Assembly (NCBI GenBank): GCA_030835025.1
Contig: JAUQWS010000072.1
Span: forward strand, 1-50,134
Reading direction: 5' to 3'
DNA length: 50,134 bases
DNA from: Ignavibacteria bacterium
GTDB lineage: Bacteria; Bacteroidota; Ignavibacteria; Tepidaquicellales; OLB5
This document shows, one piece after another, positions 2,626 to 35,544 of the stretch (its first letter is position 1; the number at the start of each line of letters is the position of its first letter). The translations under genes were made by a program, and so were the position numbers. The notes beneath the pieces were generated by a model, which worked only from the letters and a program-made list of their open reading frames with translations, was not told the origin of the DNA and did no database searches.

Positions 2626-2652
2626 TATTGCGACGTAGTATAAAACTGGAAT

Positions 2653-3360
2653 ATGAAACCTCAATTTGAACATCCCGTTTGCGATGAATGCCGCTCAAAA
2701 CTTGGAAATGTATTTTGCACCTTAACTGAATCGCAGACTTCTGAAATGGATTCTGAAAAGAACTGCAGCATTTTCAAAAAAGGTCAGATAATTTTTAATG
2801 AAGGCAATAAACCTGCCGGAGTATATTGTGTAAATAAAGGAAAGATAAAGATCTATCAAACCGGTGAAGAAGGCAAAGAACAGATACTAAGGCTCGCAAA
2901 AGAAGGCGATATACTTGGATACAGGTCACTTATAAGCGGTGAGGCATATTCAGGCACGGCTTCTGTTATGGAAGATGCCACGGTTTGTTTTATTCCCAAA
3001 AGGACTTTTTTTGATTTTCTCCATACAAACTCAGACCTTTCTTCTGCAATGATGCAGCTTCTCTCACACGATCTTAAAGAAGCAGAAGCAAGGCTTACCG
3101 GTCTTGCTCAAAAGCCCGTCAGGGAAAGAATGGCAGAAGCATTATTGATGCTGTTTGAATTCTACGGATCCGATAAAGACGGTGCAATAAACGCAGCTAT
3201 ATCACGCGAAGATATCGCGAACATTGTTGGAACTGCAACTGAAACAACGATTAGAATACTTTCTGATTTCAAGAATGAGAAGCTTATTGAGCTGCTCGGA
3301 AAGAAAATTAAGATCGTTAATCACCAGGGACTCATCAAAACTGCTCACATTTACGACTAG
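2653..3360 (+). CDS. Crp/Fnr family regulator with N-terminal cysteines
   Basis: A 235-residue transcription factor. An N-terminal cysteine stretch has Cys10, Cys13 and Cys22 (CDECRSKLGNVFC) plus Cys38. A cyclic-nucleotide-binding-like beta-roll spans about 40-150 and a C-terminal winged HTH about 160-225 (ISREDIANIVGTATETTIRIL, recognition helix near 195-205). The cysteines resemble the Fe-S ligands of FNR, so oxygen sensing is plausible, but the spacing (C-x2-C-x8-C) is not the E. coli one and cluster binding is unproven. Its position beside a second such regulator, a ferredoxin and the cbb3 oxidase operon, all carrying Crp/Fnr boxes, supports control of a low-oxygen regulon. Confidence 0.85.
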   Translation: MKPQFEHPVCDECRSKLGNVFCTLTESQTSEMDSEKNCSIFKKGQIIFNEGNKPAGVYCVNKGKIKIYQTGEEGKEQILRLAKEGDILGYRSLISGEAYSGTASVMEDATVCFIPKRTFFDFLHTNSDLSSAMMQLLSHDLKEAEARLTGLAQKPVRERMAEALLMLFEFYGSDKDGAINAAISREDIANIVGTATETTIRILSDFKNEKLIELLGKKIKIVNHQGLIKTAHIYD

Positions 3361-28457: not shown

Positions 28458-30302
28458 TTATTCCACCGTCACACTTTTAGCAAGGTTCCTCGGCTGGTCA
28501 ACATTGCAGCCCCTCAGGACTGCAAGGTGATACGCGAATAACTGCAGCGGTATAGTTGTAAGTATCGGTGAAAGCATTTCCATTGTGTGAGGTATCTTAA
28601 TAATATAATCCGAATACTCATCAATATGACCGTCTGAATCCTCGTCAGTAATAGTTATAACAACCCCTTTTCTGGCTTTAACTTCCCTTATGTTGGAAAT
28701 AACCTTTTCATAGGTAGAATCTTTCGGGGCAATGACAATAACCGGCATGTTCTGATCAATAAGTGCTATCGGGCCGTGTTTCATCTCAGCAGCAGGGTAG
28801 CCTTCAGCGTGGATATATGAAATTTCTTTCAGCTTCAGTGCGCCTTCAAGGGCAACGGGGAAATTATAGCCCCGCCCTAAATAAAGCATATGCTGCGAGA
28901 ACTTGAAAACTTTTGCAATTTCAAGTATCTGGTCATTTAGCTTCAGAATATCCCTGATCTTCTCAGGGAGCTGCAGCAATTCATCAGTAATATTGCGTAT
29001 TTCAATATGGGGCAATGAATTCCGGTACTGTGCAATCATCAGCGAAATCAGCGCAAGTCCGGTAAGCTGAGATGTGAAGGCCTTTGTTGATGCTACACCA
29101 ATTTCAGGTCCGGCGTGCGTGAATATTCCGGCATGGGTTTCCCTGGAAATTGTACTGCCCACTACGTTCACAATTCCGTAAACATCAGCACCCCTTGATT
29201 TAGCCTCTTTCAATGCTGCCAGTGTATCCGCAGTTTCACCGCTCTGGCTGATAACAAACATTATATCATTGGGGTAAATTACAGGATTTCGGTAACGGAA
29301 CTCAGACGCATATTCAACCTCCACGGGGATCTTGCACATTTGTTCTATCATGTACTCGCCAACGAGTCCCGCATGCCACGCTGTACCGCAGGCTGAGATA
29401 ATTATTCTTGGCGCATATTTAAGCTTTTCGGTCACATTCATCAGGCCGCCGAGCTTCACAAGCCCGGTATCTTTTACTATCCTTCCGCGCATTGTGTTGG
29501 TAATTGAATCCGGCTGCTCATTAATTTCCTTGAGCATAAAGTGCTCATAGCCGCCCTTTTCGATCTCTTCGAGGTCAAAGGTAATCTCCTCAAGCTCCCT
29601 GGTTATCTTCTCATCATGTATAGTCTTTATCTCGAACTTATCCTTTGTTACAATTACCATTTCACCATCCATCAGGTAGAGTACCTGGCGGGTATGGGGG
29701 ATTATTGCAGTTGCATCAGAAGCAATTATGTATTCTTTTTCGCCGACACCAAGAACAAGGGGTGAACCTTTTCTTGCAGCGATAATCTTATCAGGCTCAA
29801 ATTTTGAGAGAACACAGATACCATAAGTACCTTCAACTTCAGCAAGTGCAAGTCTGACTGAGGTCTCAAAATCATTTACATTCTTATAATGTGAGCGTAT
29901 AAGGTGAACCAAACATTCAGTATCAGTATCAGTTGTGAAGTGATAACCTTCGCGCTGGAGCTTTGTCTTAAGAGACTTGTAGTTTTCTATGATGCCATTA
30001 TGAATTACAACTATCTCGTTATCTTCATCAAATATTGGGTGAGCATTTGTATTGTTGGGCTCGCCATGTGTTGCCCATCTGGTATGCCCGAAACCGATAC
30101 TTGCATCTTTATCATATCCGTTATCGCTCAAAACAGCCTCAAGATCTGTGACCTTTCCCGCAGTCTTCCTGACTGCTATTTCATTTCCAAACATTAAGGC
30201 AACACCTGCAGAATCATAGCCTCTGTACTCAAGTTTCTTGAGTCCGCTTATGATTATAGGAAGTGCTTGTTTATTACCAAGATACGCAACTATTCCACAC
30301 AT
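28458..30302 (-). CDS. glmS: Glutamine-fructose-6-phosphate aminotransferase (isomerising)
   Basis: A 614-residue enzyme making glucosamine-6-phosphate for cell-wall precursors. The N-terminal class II glutaminase starts at Cys2 (MCGIVAYLG), followed by 'HTRWATHGEPNNTNAHP' and two SIS sugar-isomerase domains ('SQSGETADTLAALKEA' about 355-370; 'GRGYNFPVALEGALKLKE'). The C-terminus 'VDQPRNLAKSVTVE' is canonical. Full length. The 5' leader is only about 80 bp to the next gene, and I see no glmS ribozyme. Confidence 0.97.
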   Translation of the reverse strand: MCGIVAYLGNKQALPIIISGLKKLEYRGYDSAGVALMFGNEIAVRKTAGKVTDLEAVLSDNGYDKDASIGFGHTRWATHGEPNNTNAHPIFDEDNEIVVIHNGIIENYKSLKTKLQREGYHFTTDTDTECLVHLIRSHYKNVNDFETSVRLALAEVEGTYGICVLSKFEPDKIIAARKGSPLVLGVGEKEYIIASDATAIIPHTRQVLYLMDGEMVIVTKDKFEIKTIHDEKITRELEEITFDLEEIEKGGYEHFMLKEINEQPDSITNTMRGRIVKDTGLVKLGGLMNVTEKLKYAPRIIISACGTAWHAGLVGEYMIEQMCKIPVEVEYASEFRYRNPVIYPNDIMFVISQSGETADTLAALKEAKSRGADVYGIVNVVGSTISRETHAGIFTHAGPEIGVASTKAFTSQLTGLALISLMIAQYRNSLPHIEIRNITDELLQLPEKIRDILKLNDQILEIAKVFKFSQHMLYLGRGYNFPVALEGALKLKEISYIHAEGYPAAEMKHGPIALIDQNMPVIVIAPKDSTYEKVISNIREVKARKGVVITITDEDSDGHIDEYSDYIIKIPHTMEMLSPILTTIPLQLFAYHLAVLRGCNVDQPRNLAKSVTVE

Positions 30303-30385: not shown

Positions 30386-31846
30386 TTAGAGTATTTGAGC
30401 TTTAAACACCTCACGACAAAACCGTACCCAACTAATTGCCGGTTCCGGGTAAGTTCCCAAGATCAATACTAAAAATATCAGGACAATCAAAACTACTTTT
30501 TGAAAACTACTAACCAATTTGAGATCACTGTTTATCCCGGTTGAAAATGCGCTGTAAGACAGCTTGAATATGAAGTACAGCAGCGTTATGGAACTTAAAA
30601 CACACACTACAGCCGGAACCGCAAATCCGTTTTTCAGGAGTTCAGGAGTTAACAAAAGCCTGCCCGGGAATCCGGCTGTCAAAGGGAATCCCGCGAACGA
30701 AGCTAAAAAGATCACAAGTGCAATTATCAACAGCGGATTGGATTTCCCAAGTCCTTTAACAGAAGCTAATTCTGTTATCTGATATTCTTCTTCAAGTATT
30801 CTAAGGCAGTAAAATAAGCCGCCTCCTGCAGCTGTGAATACAAGAACATTGAAAAGCATTGCTTCAGTTCCTGATATGGTAGGAGATGCCATTCCCAGAA
30901 TAATGAAGCCTGATTGCGCTATTAACAAGAACGAAAAGATCTTCCGCAGGCTATACTGCCGTAGTATTACCAGGTTGCCGGCCAGAACAGAAATTGTCCC
31001 TATTATGGCGTACATTAAGTCCCATTTAACACCTGCAACAAAACTATATGCAGTACTTTCAGATGCAAAATCACCTGAATCGTGGAATGCAATGGTATAA
31101 AAACGCAGTGCCATTATTGAAAGGACTGTTATCAGTGGTATAGAGATTAGCCCAAATGTCCTTAAAGGAATCTTCTCCGTTAGAGCAGGGTAGTAGAAAT
31201 TGAACGGAAACAAGTACATTTTGAATGCAATTCCTGCTGTGATAAGAATTACCGAGATCGAGAGAGTTAAAGTATTGAACGGATTCTGTGACAGAAAACT
31301 GCCGATAGCATAATAATCAAATGAGCCGCACACTCCGTATAAAATTGTCATACCAAAGAGCATCATTCCGGAAAGCACACTGCCATACACAAAGTACCTG
31401 AACGAAAGCTTCCCGCAACCTGAGATCAAAAGATAAATTGATATACTTATCAATTCAAGAGAAATGAAGGTCAGAACAAGGTTTGAAGAAGATACTGCAA
31501 TCGCCGATGAAAGCGCTATTGCCGGTATGAGAAGAAACTCATTTGATGAATGCTCCTTACGGAAGAAAAATAATGCAATCAATAATATTGCTGAAAGAGA
31601 AACAGATTTACCGAAGTATGACAAATGATCAAGTACCAGCAATCCACCAAATGCTGACTGCATTGGAGTATAGGCCTGCAGCAAGGAGAATACCAGTGCC
31701 GCTGCTAAACCGGTAATAGATGCTATGTATACCCCGGTATCAGAGGTTTTTCTGAGCGAATGCAGAATATTAATTATCACAATAGTAAGAGAAAGAGTTA
31801 ACTCAGGCAGAAAATTGTAGAGAATATTAACTATTTCCGGGTTCAA
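30386..31846 (-). CDS. Diverged NADH-quinone oxidoreductase subunit N (NuoN-like)
   Basis: A 486-residue antiporter-like membrane subunit with about 13-14 helices. It keeps the TM5 Glu131 (FISLELISISIYLL) and TM7 Lys209 (AFKMYLFPFNFYYP). By hand alignment to E. coli NuoN the TM8 lysine is lost (IPLITVLSIMALRF) and the TM12 lysine is Arg (GFPGRLLL). The usual 'AYSSIAH.GY' stretch reads FSFLLIAQSGF. It ends a cluster of NuoA-, J-, K- and partial L-like genes, separated from them by a tRNA. Proton transfer may be weakened or altered. It could also belong to another antiporter-type complex. Confidence 0.78.
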   Translation of the reverse strand: MNPEIVNILYNFLPELTLSLTIVIINILHSLRKTSDTGVYIASITGLAAALVFSLLQAYTPMQSAFGGLLVLDHLSYFGKSVSLSAILLIALFFFRKEHSSNEFLLIPAIALSSAIAVSSSNLVLTFISLELISISIYLLISGCGKLSFRYFVYGSVLSGMMLFGMTILYGVCGSFDYYAIGSFLSQNPFNTLTLSISVILITAGIAFKMYLFPFNFYYPALTEKIPLRTFGLISIPLITVLSIMALRFYTIAFHDSGDFASESTAYSFVAGVKWDLMYAIIGTISVLAGNLVILRQYSLRKIFSFLLIAQSGFIILGMASPTISGTEAMLFNVLVFTAAGGGLFYCLRILEEEYQITELASVKGLGKSNPLLIIALVIFLASFAGFPLTAGFPGRLLLTPELLKNGFAVPAVVCVLSSITLLYFIFKLSYSAFSTGINSDLKLVSSFQKVVLIVLIFLVLILGTYPEPAISWVRFCREVFKAQIL

Positions 31847-31902
31847 TTATTTTCTGTACGATCTGTCTGTTTAGATCTATGGAATCTGCCTGAGATAAGT
31901 TG

Positions 31903-31986
31903 TACCGCCGATCGGACTCGAACCGATACGAAGTTGCCCTCACTAGATTTTGAGTCTAGCGCGTCTACCAATTCCGCCACGGCGGC
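31903..31986 (-). tRNA. tRNA-Leu (anticodon CAA)
   Basis: The 84-base cloverleaf folds by eye. The acceptor GCCGCCG pairs with CGGCGGT (G-U at the end). There is a 3-bp D stem, anticodon stem CTAGA/TCTAG with loop CTCAAAA, a long variable arm as in class II tRNAs, T stem ATCGG/CCGAT with TTCGAGT, and discriminator A. CCA is not encoded. It lies on the same strand as, and inside, the complex I-like cluster. Confidence 0.93.
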
Positions 31987-32014
31987 AAAAAATAAGAACA
32001 CAATAATATGAAAA

Positions 32015-32431
32015 TTAGAAAACAGTTAAAATGAAATAAAATACCACAATTAAGCCTGCCGCTGCAGCAATCATATATTGCTCATTTTCACCATAGAATT
32101 TCCTTATTACAAGTGCGGTCAGATCCACGGGTTCTTCAAATACGAATCTATCCATTTGTGCAGAGAATGCTTCTATCTTACAGCATATCAACGATATTCT
32201 ATTCAGCAAGGAAACGAATGCTGCGAGTATTTTTTGAATTACCTGCACAATGGATCGGTTCACAAAAGCGGTGATCTTGAATATCAACTCATTTTTCATC
32301 GATTTTGAAAAGAATGCATATGAATATTCTCTGCATAACTTGCTGCAATGAAAAAGAGTGTAAATGATCAATATCACATACAAAATCACAGTAAATACTA
32401 TAAAAGCTGTTATGTTAACGCTTTCGGTCAA
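32015..32431 (-). CDS. Free-standing NuoL C-terminal region (lateral-helix-like protein)
   Basis: A 138-residue protein with one N-terminal membrane helix (about 6-27), an 80-residue amphipathic, helix-rich middle and a C-terminal membrane helix (about 118-137). The end ('ENEQYMIAAAAGLIVVFYFIL') aligns with the end of E. coli NuoL ('NGYLRWYVASMSIGAVVVLAL'). TM, long lateral stretch, TM is exactly the layout of NuoL's last part, with the 14-helix antiporter body missing. It overlaps the NuoK-like gene by ATGA, so it is not simply frayed debris. A remnant of a truncated nuoL remains possible. Confidence 0.5.
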   Translation of the reverse strand: MTESVNITAFIVFTVILYVILIIYTLFHCSKLCREYSYAFFSKSMKNELIFKITAFVNRSIVQVIQKILAAFVSLLNRISLICCKIEAFSAQMDRFVFEEPVDLTALVIRKFYGENEQYMIAAAAGLIVVFYFILTVF

Positions 32432-32718
32432 ATGTTTGATTCCGCCTTGTTATTGATTTCACTTCCTTTGTACGATAAAAATATTCCTGTTAAAACAATC
32501 AACAAACAAATCACCGAGACTAATATAAATACAATCTGTCCTTCCGGATTGAACCATTTGAACCCTGAAAATGCTGCTATGTTAAGTAATGAAGCTGAGA
32601 AGAGAAGTGATATACCAATTATTGACTTTGACCTGTTCCTTGCCGAGATAACAGTGTACACCCCGAACCCGAAGACGAGAGCGCTCAATATTATGTAATG
32701 ATTTACACCTACTGCCAT
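32428..32718 (-). CDS. NuoK-like subunit without the proton-channel glutamates
   Basis: A 96-residue three-helix protein. 'NHYIILSALVF' (6-16) and 'EGQIVFIL' (59-66) align directly with E. coli NuoK 'QHGLILAAILF' and 'DGQVMYIL'. At the positions of NuoK Glu36 and Glu72, both needed for proton pumping, it has Ser37 (IIGISLL) and Ile74. MrpC/MnhC proteins also lack the first Glu, so it could descend from an Mrp-type branch, but the rest favours NuoK. It is one base after the NuoJ-like stop and overlaps the next gene. Confidence 0.7.
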   Translation of the reverse strand: MAVGVNHYIILSALVFGFGVYTVISARNRSKSIIGISLLFSASLLNIAAFSGFKWFNPEGQIVFILVSVICLLIVLTGIFLSYKGSEINNKAESNI

Positions 32719-32719
32719 T

Positions 32720-33193
32720 CTAAATGATCTCCTTATTTCTTAAAGATGACAAAACAGTAGGCAGAACAGCTGAGACCACCACTGCCATCAGAAGAATAAC
32801 GGGAAGGTATACGGAAAATATTAAAGCGAAATTTACTTTGGTGAAATCAATATCAAAGACAGGTAATCTTGTTGAGCTTACTAAACTTGATACAATGGCA
32901 GTAAATAAACCGGTTATGAACAGGAATGAATAATTCTTTACATTTGGAGGCTCTTGGTATGCAGGTTCTGTAATCGAATTAGATTTCTCAATTAGCGTTA
33001 GAAGTATCACAGAAATAAACACAAGCATCAATAGAACCAGCGCAATCAAGGCTGAATTTAATAAAACTAGAAGTGCGGAATAAATGAATAAAAAAATTGC
33101 AAAATAGTAAGGAGTCCTTTTCTCCGAAAATGCTGTGAACATGCACGAGGCTATACAAAGCACGGCAAATATGTAGTAGAAAGCTTCGTACAT
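32720..33193 (-). CDS. Diverged NuoJ-like subunit
   Basis: A 157-residue protein with five predicted helices: three in about 5-68, then two near 92-106 and 125-150, as in NuoJ. The start 'YEAFYYIFAVLCIASCMFTAF' resembles NuoJ 'MEFAFYICGLIAILATLRVI'. The conserved TM3 'E..VYAGA..VLF.F..M' is replaced by 'LIALVLLMLVFISVILL', so the strained TM3 important for coupling is not preserved. Its ATG shares a base with the preceding stop. The identification leans on order and topology. Confidence 0.55.
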   Translation of the reverse strand: MYEAFYYIFAVLCIASCMFTAFSEKRTPYYFAIFLFIYSALLVLLNSALIALVLLMLVFISVILLTLIEKSNSITEPAYQEPPNVKNYSFLFITGLFTAIVSSLVSSTRLPVFDIDFTKVNFALIFSVYLPVILLMAVVVSAVLPTVLSSLRNKEII

Positions 33194-33816
33194 TACTTCA
33201 GTTTGTATTCTTTAAGTACATAATATATCGGTTTCAATACCGGGGGATTCGTTCTGTTCGCTCCCCATTTAGCAATTCCAATATCTTTTTTGAACCACAT
33301 TTCATACGAGAAAGTAAAACCGTCAGTCAGTATTACGTAGAAGCAATCAGTAAAATTACCTGCTTCCGTTCTGACAGTATCATTGAAATTGCTCAATCTG
33401 CCTGTAAGTTCACCGAACTTCCATACAAAGCCGTCTTTAAAATTATCCTGTGCCGGAATTATCACTCCTTCGTACCCCATATAGCCGCTAATTTCAATTT
33501 GACCGCCGCTCTTGACCTTTATTGTTCGTGACTCACTATCTTTGGTCAAAAAAGGGAAACAACTCACTTTTAGCTGAACTCCGCTTTCAATCTTTTTGAA
33601 ACCCTTTGCTTTGACTTCAAAAAGCTCAGTTTCCTCCCTAGGTGCTTCGTTTACATAACTCCAGCTATTTCCTTCTGATAACGGGAAATATCTGTTAGAA
33701 TTTTCTCCTGATGAATCAGTTTTCTTAACCTCATTTTTTCCGTTTCCGGAACCATTGCAGTTAAAAGCAGTCAGGAAATGCAAACTTAAAACCAATATAA
33801 GTATTACTTTTGTCAA
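33193..33816 (-). CDS. Exported YFPL-type protein inside the complex I-like cluster
   Basis: A 207-residue protein with a signal sequence ending near Cys20 (LTAFNC, an atypical lipobox). The mature domain opens with 'RYFPLSEGNSWSYVNE'. The same 'YFPL..GN.W' opening occurs in the divergent T9SS cargo protein at 34651-35544, so they share a domain of unknown function. It is coupled on both sides (ATGA with the preceding gene, one-base overlap with the NuoJ-like gene). An exported partner in the middle of membrane-arm genes is odd. Confidence 0.6.
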   Translation of the reverse strand: MTKVILILVLSLHFLTAFNCNGSGNGKNEVKKTDSSGENSNRYFPLSEGNSWSYVNEAPREETELFEVKAKGFKKIESGVQLKVSCFPFLTKDSESRTIKVKSGGQIEISGYMGYEGVIIPAQDNFKDGFVWKFGELTGRLSNFNDTVRTEAGNFTDCFYVILTDGFTFSYEMWFKKDIGIAKWGANRTNPPVLKPIYYVLKEYKLK

Positions 33817-34547
33817 GGTGATTTCTTTTTTGTTTTATGAACGACTGGTTTCTTAGCAGCGCTTTTAGGTGCAGTTTTCGTACGTGCAGTTTTTCTAACG
33901 GGCTGTTTCTTTGTATGCGGATGTTTTACCTCTTCAGTTTTACGCTCATCTTGTGTGATTATCTTCTCTTCAAGAGGTTTCTCCCCAACCACGGCAGGTT
34001 GAGCTGTTTCAACGGTCAGTTCAGCAGCAGTTTCAATCTTATCTTGTAGCGGAATTTCAGCTTCAATTTCATTAGTTTCTTGCGGAGCTATCTCTTCAGA
34101 GACTGGAATAACCTGTTCTGTCAAATCTTCCTCTATATTATCGTTCTCCTGAACAGCCGGCATCTCCTCTGCTTTGATTCTTTGCTCTATCGGCTGAATC
34201 GTAATGGCCGGCTCTGTAATTAATGCTCTTGAAGGGAATTCAATAAAATTTCTAGTTTTTCTCGCAGGTATGAGTCCCAAAACAGGCAGTGTTACGACTA
34301 TAAGAACAGTTCCGGTTAACAAAACAGCATTCCAGCCGAAATCAAATATGAAAGTAAGGTAATACCTGAAGTAAGTGATTTCAATCGTGACTAATGAGAT
34401 GAACAGAAGAGGTACAAAATACTTTATTATTTCAGATCTGAGGTTCAGTCTTCTGTTCTTGTGCAAAGCAGATAAATGCAGAAATGATATCAGCACAGCC
34501 GTAATGAGGGCAGTAAGTAAGATAATTATCTGAGAAATTGATAACAT
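33813..34547 (-). CDS. NuoA-like membrane protein with acidic linker and histone-like tail
   Basis: A 244-residue protein. The first ~95 residues have three helices. 'KYFVPLLFISLVTIEITYF' (about 42-60) aligns without gaps to the NuoA TM2 region 'KFYLVAMFFVIFDVEALYL', keeping the buried Glu but not the Asp two before it. The rest has no NuoA counterpart: a Glu-rich linker (about 100-205), then a Lys/Ala/Pro/Thr tail (about 206-244, 'KKPVVHKTKKKSP') like histone H1-type tails. It is the first gene of the cluster. The NuoA link is by eye and moderate. Confidence 0.5.
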   Translation of the reverse strand: MLSISQIIILLTALITAVLISFLHLSALHKNRRLNLRSEIIKYFVPLLFISLVTIEITYFRYYLTFIFDFGWNAVLLTGTVLIVVTLPVLGLIPARKTRNFIEFPSRALITEPAITIQPIEQRIKAEEMPAVQENDNIEEDLTEQVIPVSEEIAPQETNEIEAEIPLQDKIETAAELTVETAQPAVVGEKPLEEKIITQDERKTEEVKHPHTKKQPVRKTARTKTAPKSAAKKPVVHKTKKKSP

Positions 34548-34584: not shown

Positions 34585-34626
34585 GGTTTATTACATTAAT
34601 AAACCTCCGTTAATATGCTATATTTG
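34585..34626. promoter_or_regulatory. Divergent promoter region with 21-bp perfect inverted repeat
   Basis: GGTTTATTA-N3-TAATAAACC (34585-34605) is a perfect dyad between the NuoA-like gene and the T9SS gene. A -7 element TATATTTG (34619-34626) follows for the plus-strand gene. The dyad covers the -33 area, so a protein bound there would affect that promoter and perhaps both directions. Confidence 0.5.
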
Positions 34627-34650
34627 TATAACCATTCTCAACAAAATCCT

Positions 34651-35544
34651 TTGAAAAAACTATACATAAATTTCGCTTTTGTTCTATTGCTGCTATTTTA
34701 TGAAACAGCCTCTGCAGTAGACACGAATGCCACAAAGTATTTTCCATTAAAGGTTGGTAATACATGGGTATTCAATTACGAAGTCAGGTATTTTGGTATT
34801 GTTCAATCCACAGAAAAGTACAAGGCAACCGTTCTTTCAGATACGGTTATAAACGGACAAAAATGTTACAGAATCATTGATCTGAAATATATAACACCGG
34901 GGTTTGGTCTTTACAGGATCGACTCTTCCAACGGTGCATTTACATTATTTACAGTTTGTACCGTTGATAGCCTTGGACAGCAGAGTTTCAATAGTTCCTA
35001 CAGAAACTGCACAGATGGTATTAATGTTAAGTTTAAATCAGCAAGTAATATTGTGCTTTTCGGGGTCTCAACTGTTGATATTAATATTGAAAGTATTGTA
35101 GTACCAAGGATATTTAAGACAAGAAGATATGCGAAGGGCTTTGGGTTATATAGTTCATATTATTTGAATGATAAATATCACTATATACATACACTATTGG
35201 GATGTGTAATTGACGGAGTGTCCTATGGCGATACGAGCATGGCTATAAATGCAATTAGTCCTATAAGCAGTATAATTCCTTCGGAATTCAGTTTATATCA
35301 GAATTATCCAAACCCGTTCAATCCTTCAACTGTAATCCGGTTTGATATAGCTTCTGCCGGTTACACCTCAGTAGAAGTTTATGATGTCCTTGGAAGAAAG
35401 ATTGCAGCACTGGTAAATGAGAAGCTTAATCCCGGAAAATACGAGGTAAATTGGGTGCCTGCAGGACTGAATAGTGGCGTTTATTTCTGTCTTTTGAAGG
35501 TCAGTAATTCTGTTTTTGTCAGGAAGATGGTTCTCTTAAAGTAG
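34651..35544 (+). CDS. Secreted YFPL-type protein with type IX sorting domain
   Basis: About 297 residues. A signal peptide (KKLYINFAFVLLLLFYETASA) is followed by a beta-rich domain starting 'KYFPLKVGNTWVFNYEV'. The last ~75 residues form a T9SS type A sorting domain, with YPNPFNPSTVIRFDI, VEVYDVLGRKIAALVNE and SGVYFCLL. It would be exported across the outer membrane and its tail removed. I prefer the TTG at 34651, because an ATG at 34615 overlaps the putative -7 element (34619-34626) and would add residues before a normal signal peptide. It is divergent from the complex I-like cluster, one of whose proteins shares its N-terminal domain. Confidence 0.82.
   Translation: MKKLYINFAFVLLLLFYETASAVDTNATKYFPLKVGNTWVFNYEVRYFGIVQSTEKYKATVLSDTVINGQKCYRIIDLKYITPGFGLYRIDSSNGAFTLFTVCTVDSLGQQSFNSSYRNCTDGINVKFKSASNIVLFGVSTVDINIESIVVPRIFKTRRYAKGFGLYSSYYLNDKYHYIHTLLGCVIDGVSYGDTSMAINAISPISSIIPSEFSLYQNYPNPFNPSTVIRFDIASAGYTSVEVYDVLGRKIAALVNEKLNPGKYEVNWVPAGLNSGVYFCLLKVSNSVFVRKMVLLK

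Follow-up and report, generated by a model that had tools for sequence, protein, structure and literature searches.

The sections cited of PMC3534657 and PMC11238625 describe 11-subunit complex I in the Melioribacter roseus cluster Mros2379-2369 and in Desulfitobacterium hafniense, respectively. A membrane-only partial operon, nuoA-hypothetical-nuoHJKLMN, is described from marine actinomycetes in the cited part of PMC6676996, where a function in salinity tolerance is proposed for it. Here we analyze a cluster of six minus-strand genes at positions 30386-34547 of a 50,134-nucleotide window, contig JAUQWS010000072.1 (C129 in our numbering), from an Ignavibacteria bacterium (assembly GCA_030835025.1, genome G000; 3.03 Mb, 95% complete). 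Comparison with related genomes supports the interpretation of this cluster as a putative remnant of a second complex I operon of the 11-subunit type.

All six frames are open in the window. Gene A (33813-34547, 244 aa) is followed with a 4-base overlap by a lipoprotein-like gene (33193-33816, 207 aa), which overlaps by 1 base the gene of a NuoJ-derived subunit (32720-33193, 157 aa). After a 1-base gap come a NuoK-derived subunit (32428-32718, 96 aa) and, overlapping it by 4 bases, a stand-alone remnant of the NuoL C-terminus (32015-32431, 138 aa) comprising a transmembrane (TM) helix, an amphipathic stretch and the last TM helix. A transfer RNA (tRNA) gene, tRNA-Leu(CAA) (31902-31986, minus strand), marks the former nuoL/nuoM boundary and separates this L-tail from a NuoN-derived antiporter-like subunit (30386-31846, 486 aa); the tRNA sits where NuoM was lost, and the NuoN gene is counted as a member of the cluster. 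A previous reading of the DNA alone (the sequence-only reading) had described the tight packing of open frames and NuoJ-, NuoK-, NuoL-tail- and NuoN-like products, all of which is borne out here. It was also right that NuoH, NuoM, the NuoL body and the peripheral subunits are missing, as inspection of open reading frames (ORFs), Pfam and family profiles found no NuoH, NuoM, NuoL body or NuoB, C, D or I in the cluster.

Two families of one order were compared, namely f1, to which the window belongs, and its sister family f2. The relatives set comprises 39 genomes including the window's own (15 f1, 24 f2), and the main region set 12 f1 and 10 f2 regions, with further pieces added afterwards; the f2 protein sets, from which matches below 50% identity were excluded, hold 8 rows each for NuoA, B, C, D, H, I, J and K, 9 for NuoL and 10 each for NuoM and NuoN. 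Pfam names only two of the six proteins, K (NuoK PF00420, 2e-9) and N (NuoN type PF00361, 1.7e-29), and the best NCBIfam match of the window N is NuoN at 6.3e-50, below the cut-off of that model. Profile-profile comparison of f1 with 11 f2 nuo families paired J with NuoJ at 96% (E 5e-9), K with NuoK at 99% and N with NuoN at 100%, and aligned the L-tail to the last 87 NuoL columns at 69% (E 4e-5). Against every other nuo family J, K and the L-tail reached less than 3%; N also met the related L and M at 98-99%. The highest scores among the controls (one reversed and 39 block-shuffled) were 17.1 for the L-tail and 18.9 for J, against real scores of 40.5 and 60.0, respectively.

An L-tail profile run over all 44 genomes of the order (15 f1, 29 f2) found the tail as a stand-alone gene in 13 of 15 f1 genomes and in 0 of 29 f2 genomes. 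In f2 it matched the end of a NuoL-size frame (607-686 aa) in 7 genomes, with a match of another kind in G026, and it overlooks some full f2 NuoL genes (for example in G019 and G029). In a NuoN tree, the f1 sequences form one clade that joins NuoN of the f2 operons, apart from six main-type NuoN (support 99/97); the 'main' label of the f2 rows is our own assignment, of nine main-type loci considered, L028, L031 and L032 were left out, and a long-branch warning applies to the window, L042 and main NuoM. At the level of sequence these data confirm that J, K, the L-tail and N are homologous to the 11-subunit complex I operon of f2. That the cluster bears no relation to complex I is ruled out by Pfam, the f2 family profiles and the NuoN tree.

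The f2 operon runs nuoA-B-C-D-H-I-J-K-L-M-N with no E, F or G between, and every f2 locus long enough to show it, nine in all (L047-L054, L093), has a biotin ligase ahead of nuoA. The tRNA-Leu(CAA) occupies the gap from nuoL to nuoM in 9 of 10 f2 loci; the tenth (L056) has it ahead of nuoM, and NuoL was not found there. The same tRNA precedes nuoN in all 13 f1 sequences, 12 of which carry the L-tail on the opposite flank of the tRNA (in G010 the contig ends there). When the best 30 nuoM loci were fetched, the tRNA adjoined nuoM in 5/5 from f2 and 0/25 from other families of the class. Its absence from these 25 best-matching loci of other families suggests that the full operon came first. A NuoM match was present in 146 of 149 class genomes at the threshold used, main copies counted, and this spread together with the tRNA distribution points to an old operon, entry of the tRNA within this order and later loss in f1; eight f1 genomes have a single NuoM match, of main-type strength. 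Deletions would have removed nuoB, C, D, H and I, the NuoL body and nuoM, leaving J, K, the L-tail, tRNA-Leu, N and the lipoprotein gene.

The downstream flank, glmS (28458-30302, minus strand), lies outside the module and is common to several full f2 operons, standing directly behind nuoN in L049, L050, L054 and L056 and about 4 kb away in L047. Across 17 f2 glmS loci, the tRNA-Leu(CAA) adjoins glmS in 8/8 loci of genomes without an operon-type NuoN and in 0/9 with one. Four f2 genomes (G016, G028, G034 and G239), which were inspected at this site only, carry what we call scars: biotin ligase, lipoprotein, tRNA-Leu(CAA) and glmS, in a retrieved stretch devoid of nuo genes (the G239 contig measures 3512 bases). 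Insertion of nuo genes around a resident tRNA is unlikely, given that nuoM loci of other families are without the tRNA and that the scars retain both flanks of the f2 operon. GIY-YIG ORFs (PF01541) occur near tRNA-Leu/nuoN in three f1 genomes (L040:8936-9208, L041:10261-10509, L042:6899-7204). Around the tRNA-Leu of G008 (L042:5970-6700), similar peptides recur by eye in several minus-strand ORFs, as if duplicated. In G036, nuoM is in two pieces (L055:1774-2589 and 2635-3354), a possible frame break in an operon that is otherwise of the full type.

The 207-aa product was judged lipoprotein-like by eye, with Cys20 invariant behind a signal-like stretch. Its predicted structure is β-rich, with a predicted local distance difference test score (pLDDT) of 81, and the best Foldseek matches (E ~2e-5) are proteins of YmcC-like fold; the exported protein BF2203 (3fzx) and lipoprotein BDI_3050 (4fvs) superpose with TM-scores of 0.45-0.46, root-mean-square deviations of 7.6-8.5 and 12-15% identity. 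To our knowledge neither has a link to complex I. A lipoprotein profile run against 391 genomes of the class gave matches at E 1e-3 in 27, made up of 12 of the 15 f1 genomes, five f2 genomes (E 8e-22 or better) and ten weak matches in other families. The gene is present in eight loci of named genomes, including 'Chlorobi bacterium OLB5' and Ignavibacteria metagenome-assembled genomes. In the f2 genome G235 (L093) it lies between nuoC and nuoD of an operon ordered A-B-C-lipoprotein-D-H-I-J-K-L. This arrangement and the four f2 scars indicate that the gene was already part of the operon when the reduction began and is able to persist after the operon is gone; by these sequence comparisons it is an ancestral rider of the nuo operon, and it probably serves a separate function as well. 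The sequence-only reading had proposed an exported partner; an obligate partnership is rejected, as G008 has membrane genes without the lipoprotein and the four f2 sites show the reverse. Derivation from a nuo subunit was also rejected, the best comparison being 9%, to NuoI over 16 columns. Behind nuoL of G235 (L093:14126-14770) the fetched stretch contains no tRNA-Leu and no nuoM, only genes without a nuo match; this truncated operon perhaps represents another stage of loss or a rearrangement.

Remains of the module were found in 14 of the 15 f1 genomes, and all six genes in 11. The gene order of the window recurs in related genomes. Nine genomes (G000, G002, G003, G004, G006, G007, G009, G011 and G012) carry the six genes on one contig, for which reason assembly error was rejected; G010 and G013 have them across two contigs, some truncated by contig ends. 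The L-tail and N were found in G005 and A, lipoprotein and J in G001, both loci being truncated at contig ends. In G014 (87% complete) no module was seen, and glmS gave no match at E 1e-150. Searching with the NuoN protein gave close matches (E <1e-74) in G000 itself and in 12 of the other 14 f1 genomes, and fainter ones of operon type, at E 1e-51 to 1e-43, in 10 of 24 f2 genomes.

The expected separate nuo genes do exist: main-type K, L and N lie on contig C34 of the window's genome, NuoH on C131 and NuoA on C70, and NuoH has one copy in 15 of 15 f1 genomes. PF00499 NuoJ and an above-threshold NuoM were not found in G000; the 95% complete assembly probably misses them, as both occur in related f1 genomes. 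A second NuoH is present in the f2 genomes G017, G020, G021, G024, G027, G030, G031 and G037 (G239 stands outside this count), none of which has an operon-type NuoN match, and there may be a third kind of nuo cluster in the order.

In E. coli complex I, NuoH, J and K make up the E-channel; the relay runs via E36 and E72 of NuoK and E133-K217, K247 and K395 of NuoN, according to the cited part of PMC9271201. The residue numbers of NuoN were obtained by counting. In f1, 6 of 13 sequences keep E133 and 5 of 13 keep K217, a further one having Arg at 217, and position 395 is Lys or Arg in 13/13. K247 is found in 0/13 and is already Ser in 10/10 f2 operons. H224 is likewise found in 0/13, with Asn in all 13, which is weak evidence because the main NuoN of the same genome has Gln there. 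With alignment columns placed by motif, the equivalents of NuoK E36 and E72 are each present in 0/10 f1 and 8/8 f2 sequences. The sequence-only reading had noted the loss of proton-path residues, and this agrees with the missing NuoK glutamates and with NuoN ion-pair residues lost from over half of the sequences. Quinone-driven pumping by the module is, by its residues and gene content, very unlikely because there is no NuoH, the NuoK glutamates are gone and the lysine relay is not intact.

Ratios of nonsynonymous to synonymous substitution rates (dN/dS, NG86) were computed for five close f1 pairs and compared with two f2 full-operon pairs. Finite values are below 1 in all six genes: 0.06 for the lipoprotein, 0.09-0.15 for K, 0.11-0.17 for N, 0.27 for J, 0.23-0.32 for the L-tail and 0.29-0.57 for A. 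The flanks glmS and trxA gave 0 to 0.03, and the full f2 operons 0.04 for N, 0.03-0.04 for K and 0.08 for J. Identities between G000 and G009 are 34% for module N and 48% for module K, compared with 78% for main N and 94% for main K. Frames of J, K, the L-tail and N gathered from f1 are open and collinear, though only ~25-55% identical to those of the window. Neutral simulation at 1.0 change per site left K stop-free in 8 of 2000 copies, A, lipoprotein, J and L-tail in 0/2000 and N in 0/500; at 0.3 change per site, 61 (K), 12 (J) and 19 (L-tail) of 2000 were stop-free and none for the other genes. So few stop-free copies argue that the open frames are not due to chance. Among 184 invariant columns of f2 NuoN, the f2 residue occurs in no f1 sequence at 45, and f1 has invariants of its own, including N191, N216 and D256 (13/13 each). 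Taken together, sequence constraint is redirected or relaxed, not absent. Two NuoJ frames (L043:7042-7165, L045:6715-6859) are open behind the lipoprotein gene with no ATG, GTG or TTG there, likely reflecting a rare start codon or coupling.

Within the membrane arm J, K and N are neighbors in that order. We propose that they still pack together as a small inner-membrane complex, which the separate NuoL tail, containing part of the lateral helix and the last TM helix, would clamp. The lateral helix of NuoL is anchored proximally and is judged a clamp, not a piston, in the cited part of PMC3274701. The J-K-N complex would work without redox or quinone chemistry; a role as scaffold or as binding platform, perhaps facing the periplasm, seems most likely to us. 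A role in regulating or capping another complex, as the sequence-only reading suggested, would be hypothetical. We assign a probability of roughly 0.6 to a retained, quinone-independent J-K-N scaffold clamped by the NuoL tail, with a predicted function and an assembly that we infer. A more specific version, in which this clamped complex has acquired a new function as a sensor of proton motive force or an envelope scaffold and has been kept through the history of the family, is offered tentatively and we lean against it.

Several observations weigh against the clamped scaffold. None of the analyses made indicates one particular function for the module, and the predicted structure of the L-tail has low confidence (pLDDT 59). 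The dN/dS values of module J, K and N are ~3-4 times those of the full operon, as slow decay would also lead one to expect, and many dS values are saturated. G008 keeps five of the genes without the lipoprotein. The window's own NuoN retains E133, K217 and an Arg at 395. As for descent from the f2 operon, glmS of G023 and G025 lies mid-contig elsewhere and not behind the operon, and the left flanks are unlike, with trxA and dnaE in f1 versus biotin ligase in f2, from which it follows that the left end of f1 was also rearranged.

The main rival, which we regard as unlikely, is a relic in slow decay whose membrane genes are translated and lightly constrained, perhaps against toxic misfolding, and do nothing specific. 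The faster evolution of the module relative to the full operon, the weak constraint on gene A (dN/dS up to 0.57), the loss of the lipoprotein in G008, the four f2 sites devoid of any nuo gene and the two NuoJ frames lacking a usual start codon at the expected place would all fit such a relic. It accounts poorly for frames that stay open and collinear at such low identity when neutral simulation yields few or none, for K and N ratios far below 1 and for the new family-wide invariant residues. The claim of the sequence-only reading that selection prevails over decay therefore stands in part: selection is purifying where dN/dS could be measured, but the elevated J, K and N rates temper it.

Mrp antiporters contain J-, K- and N-type subunits and no redox subunits, and a minimal non-redox module of this kind, with N together with J and K acting as a proton or cation leak or antiporter, could be envisaged. 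The NuoN fold family is retained, TM12 Lys/Arg is conserved in 13/13, Mrp D chains are among the matches of the window N and MrpC models match weakly. Set against these are the incomplete ion path (NuoK E36/E72 in 0/10, NuoN E133 in 6/13 and K217 in 5/13, K247 and H224 in 0/13) and a cluster in which Pfam and NCBIfam profiles recognize no MrpA, E, F or G, which make an ion module improbable. The least probable alternative is that the products are accessory or alternative subunits that lengthen or regulate the main complex I. Main nuo genes exist elsewhere in the genome and a second J-K-N unit could dock in principle, but the divergence of module from main proteins is large, and among eight f1 genomes tested the main set includes a J in seven and an A in all eight, so no main subunit clearly needs replacing.

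For the product of gene A, ~3 TM helices are predicted, along with an extended tail of charged, low-complexity sequence that is missing in G006, G010 and G013; in G009 the gene was assigned by position and shape, without a BLAST hit. The sequence-only reading had called it NuoA-like, which the data do not sustain. Local and global comparisons with the NuoA profile, with and without the tail, gave 0.3-0.5%, and no other family matched. With PF00507, 8 f1 genomes yield a single NuoA apiece, always elsewhere and never gene A; a demonstrated NuoA was thus rejected, and only the nuoA position agrees. The minus-strand order in the window is dnaE, trxA, A, lipoprotein, J, K, L-tail, tRNA-Leu(CAA), N and glmS, with a single opposite-strand gene (34615-35544) between trxA and gene A. 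The latter encodes a protein with a type IX secretion system (T9SS) tail, whose N-terminal 'YFPL..GN.W' resembles by eye the mature start of the lipoprotein; the two products possibly form one exported domain family. A promoter scan was close to chance (16 found versus 13.8 expected; terminators 3 versus 2.9), and composition analysis gave nothing informative.

The order thus holds a stepwise record of complex I dismantling, from the full operon through the operon with lipoprotein and the membrane remnant to the bare lipoprotein-tRNA scar, and shows which membrane-arm parts can persist without a quinone site. The origin of the module is readable because its surroundings, the tRNA and the flanks, mark the former operon. 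Natural NuoL-tail proteins without a NuoL body are available, and the clamp view of the lateral helix is therefore directly testable. Mrp antiporters are alike in having J-, K- and N-type parts without redox subunits; the module differs in lacking any MrpA, E, F or G match and in its lost ion-path residues, and of a full set of MrpA-, B-, C-, D-, E-, F- and G-type subunits it shows just J-, K- and N-type matches beside the NuoL tail. We found no account of this reduction in searches of open-access literature, the nearest being the actinomycete partial operons, and the sequence-only reading went too far in knowing of no described counterpart. As set out in the cited part of PMC6676996, those operons are likewise a second, membrane-only nuo set, an extra copy with a non-nuo gene after the nuoA position, but they retain H, L and M and belong to another phylum. 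Judged by gene content and residues, the reduction here exceeds the actinomycete case, with no H, no M, only the tail of NuoL and lost channel residues. The 11-subunit complex I is the likely direct ancestor, as gene order, tRNA marker, profiles and the NuoN tree suggest by comparison with the f2 operons; unlike it, the module has no B, C, D, H, I, L body or M and an unrecognizable A, and it has lost channel residues and has no electron or quinone site.

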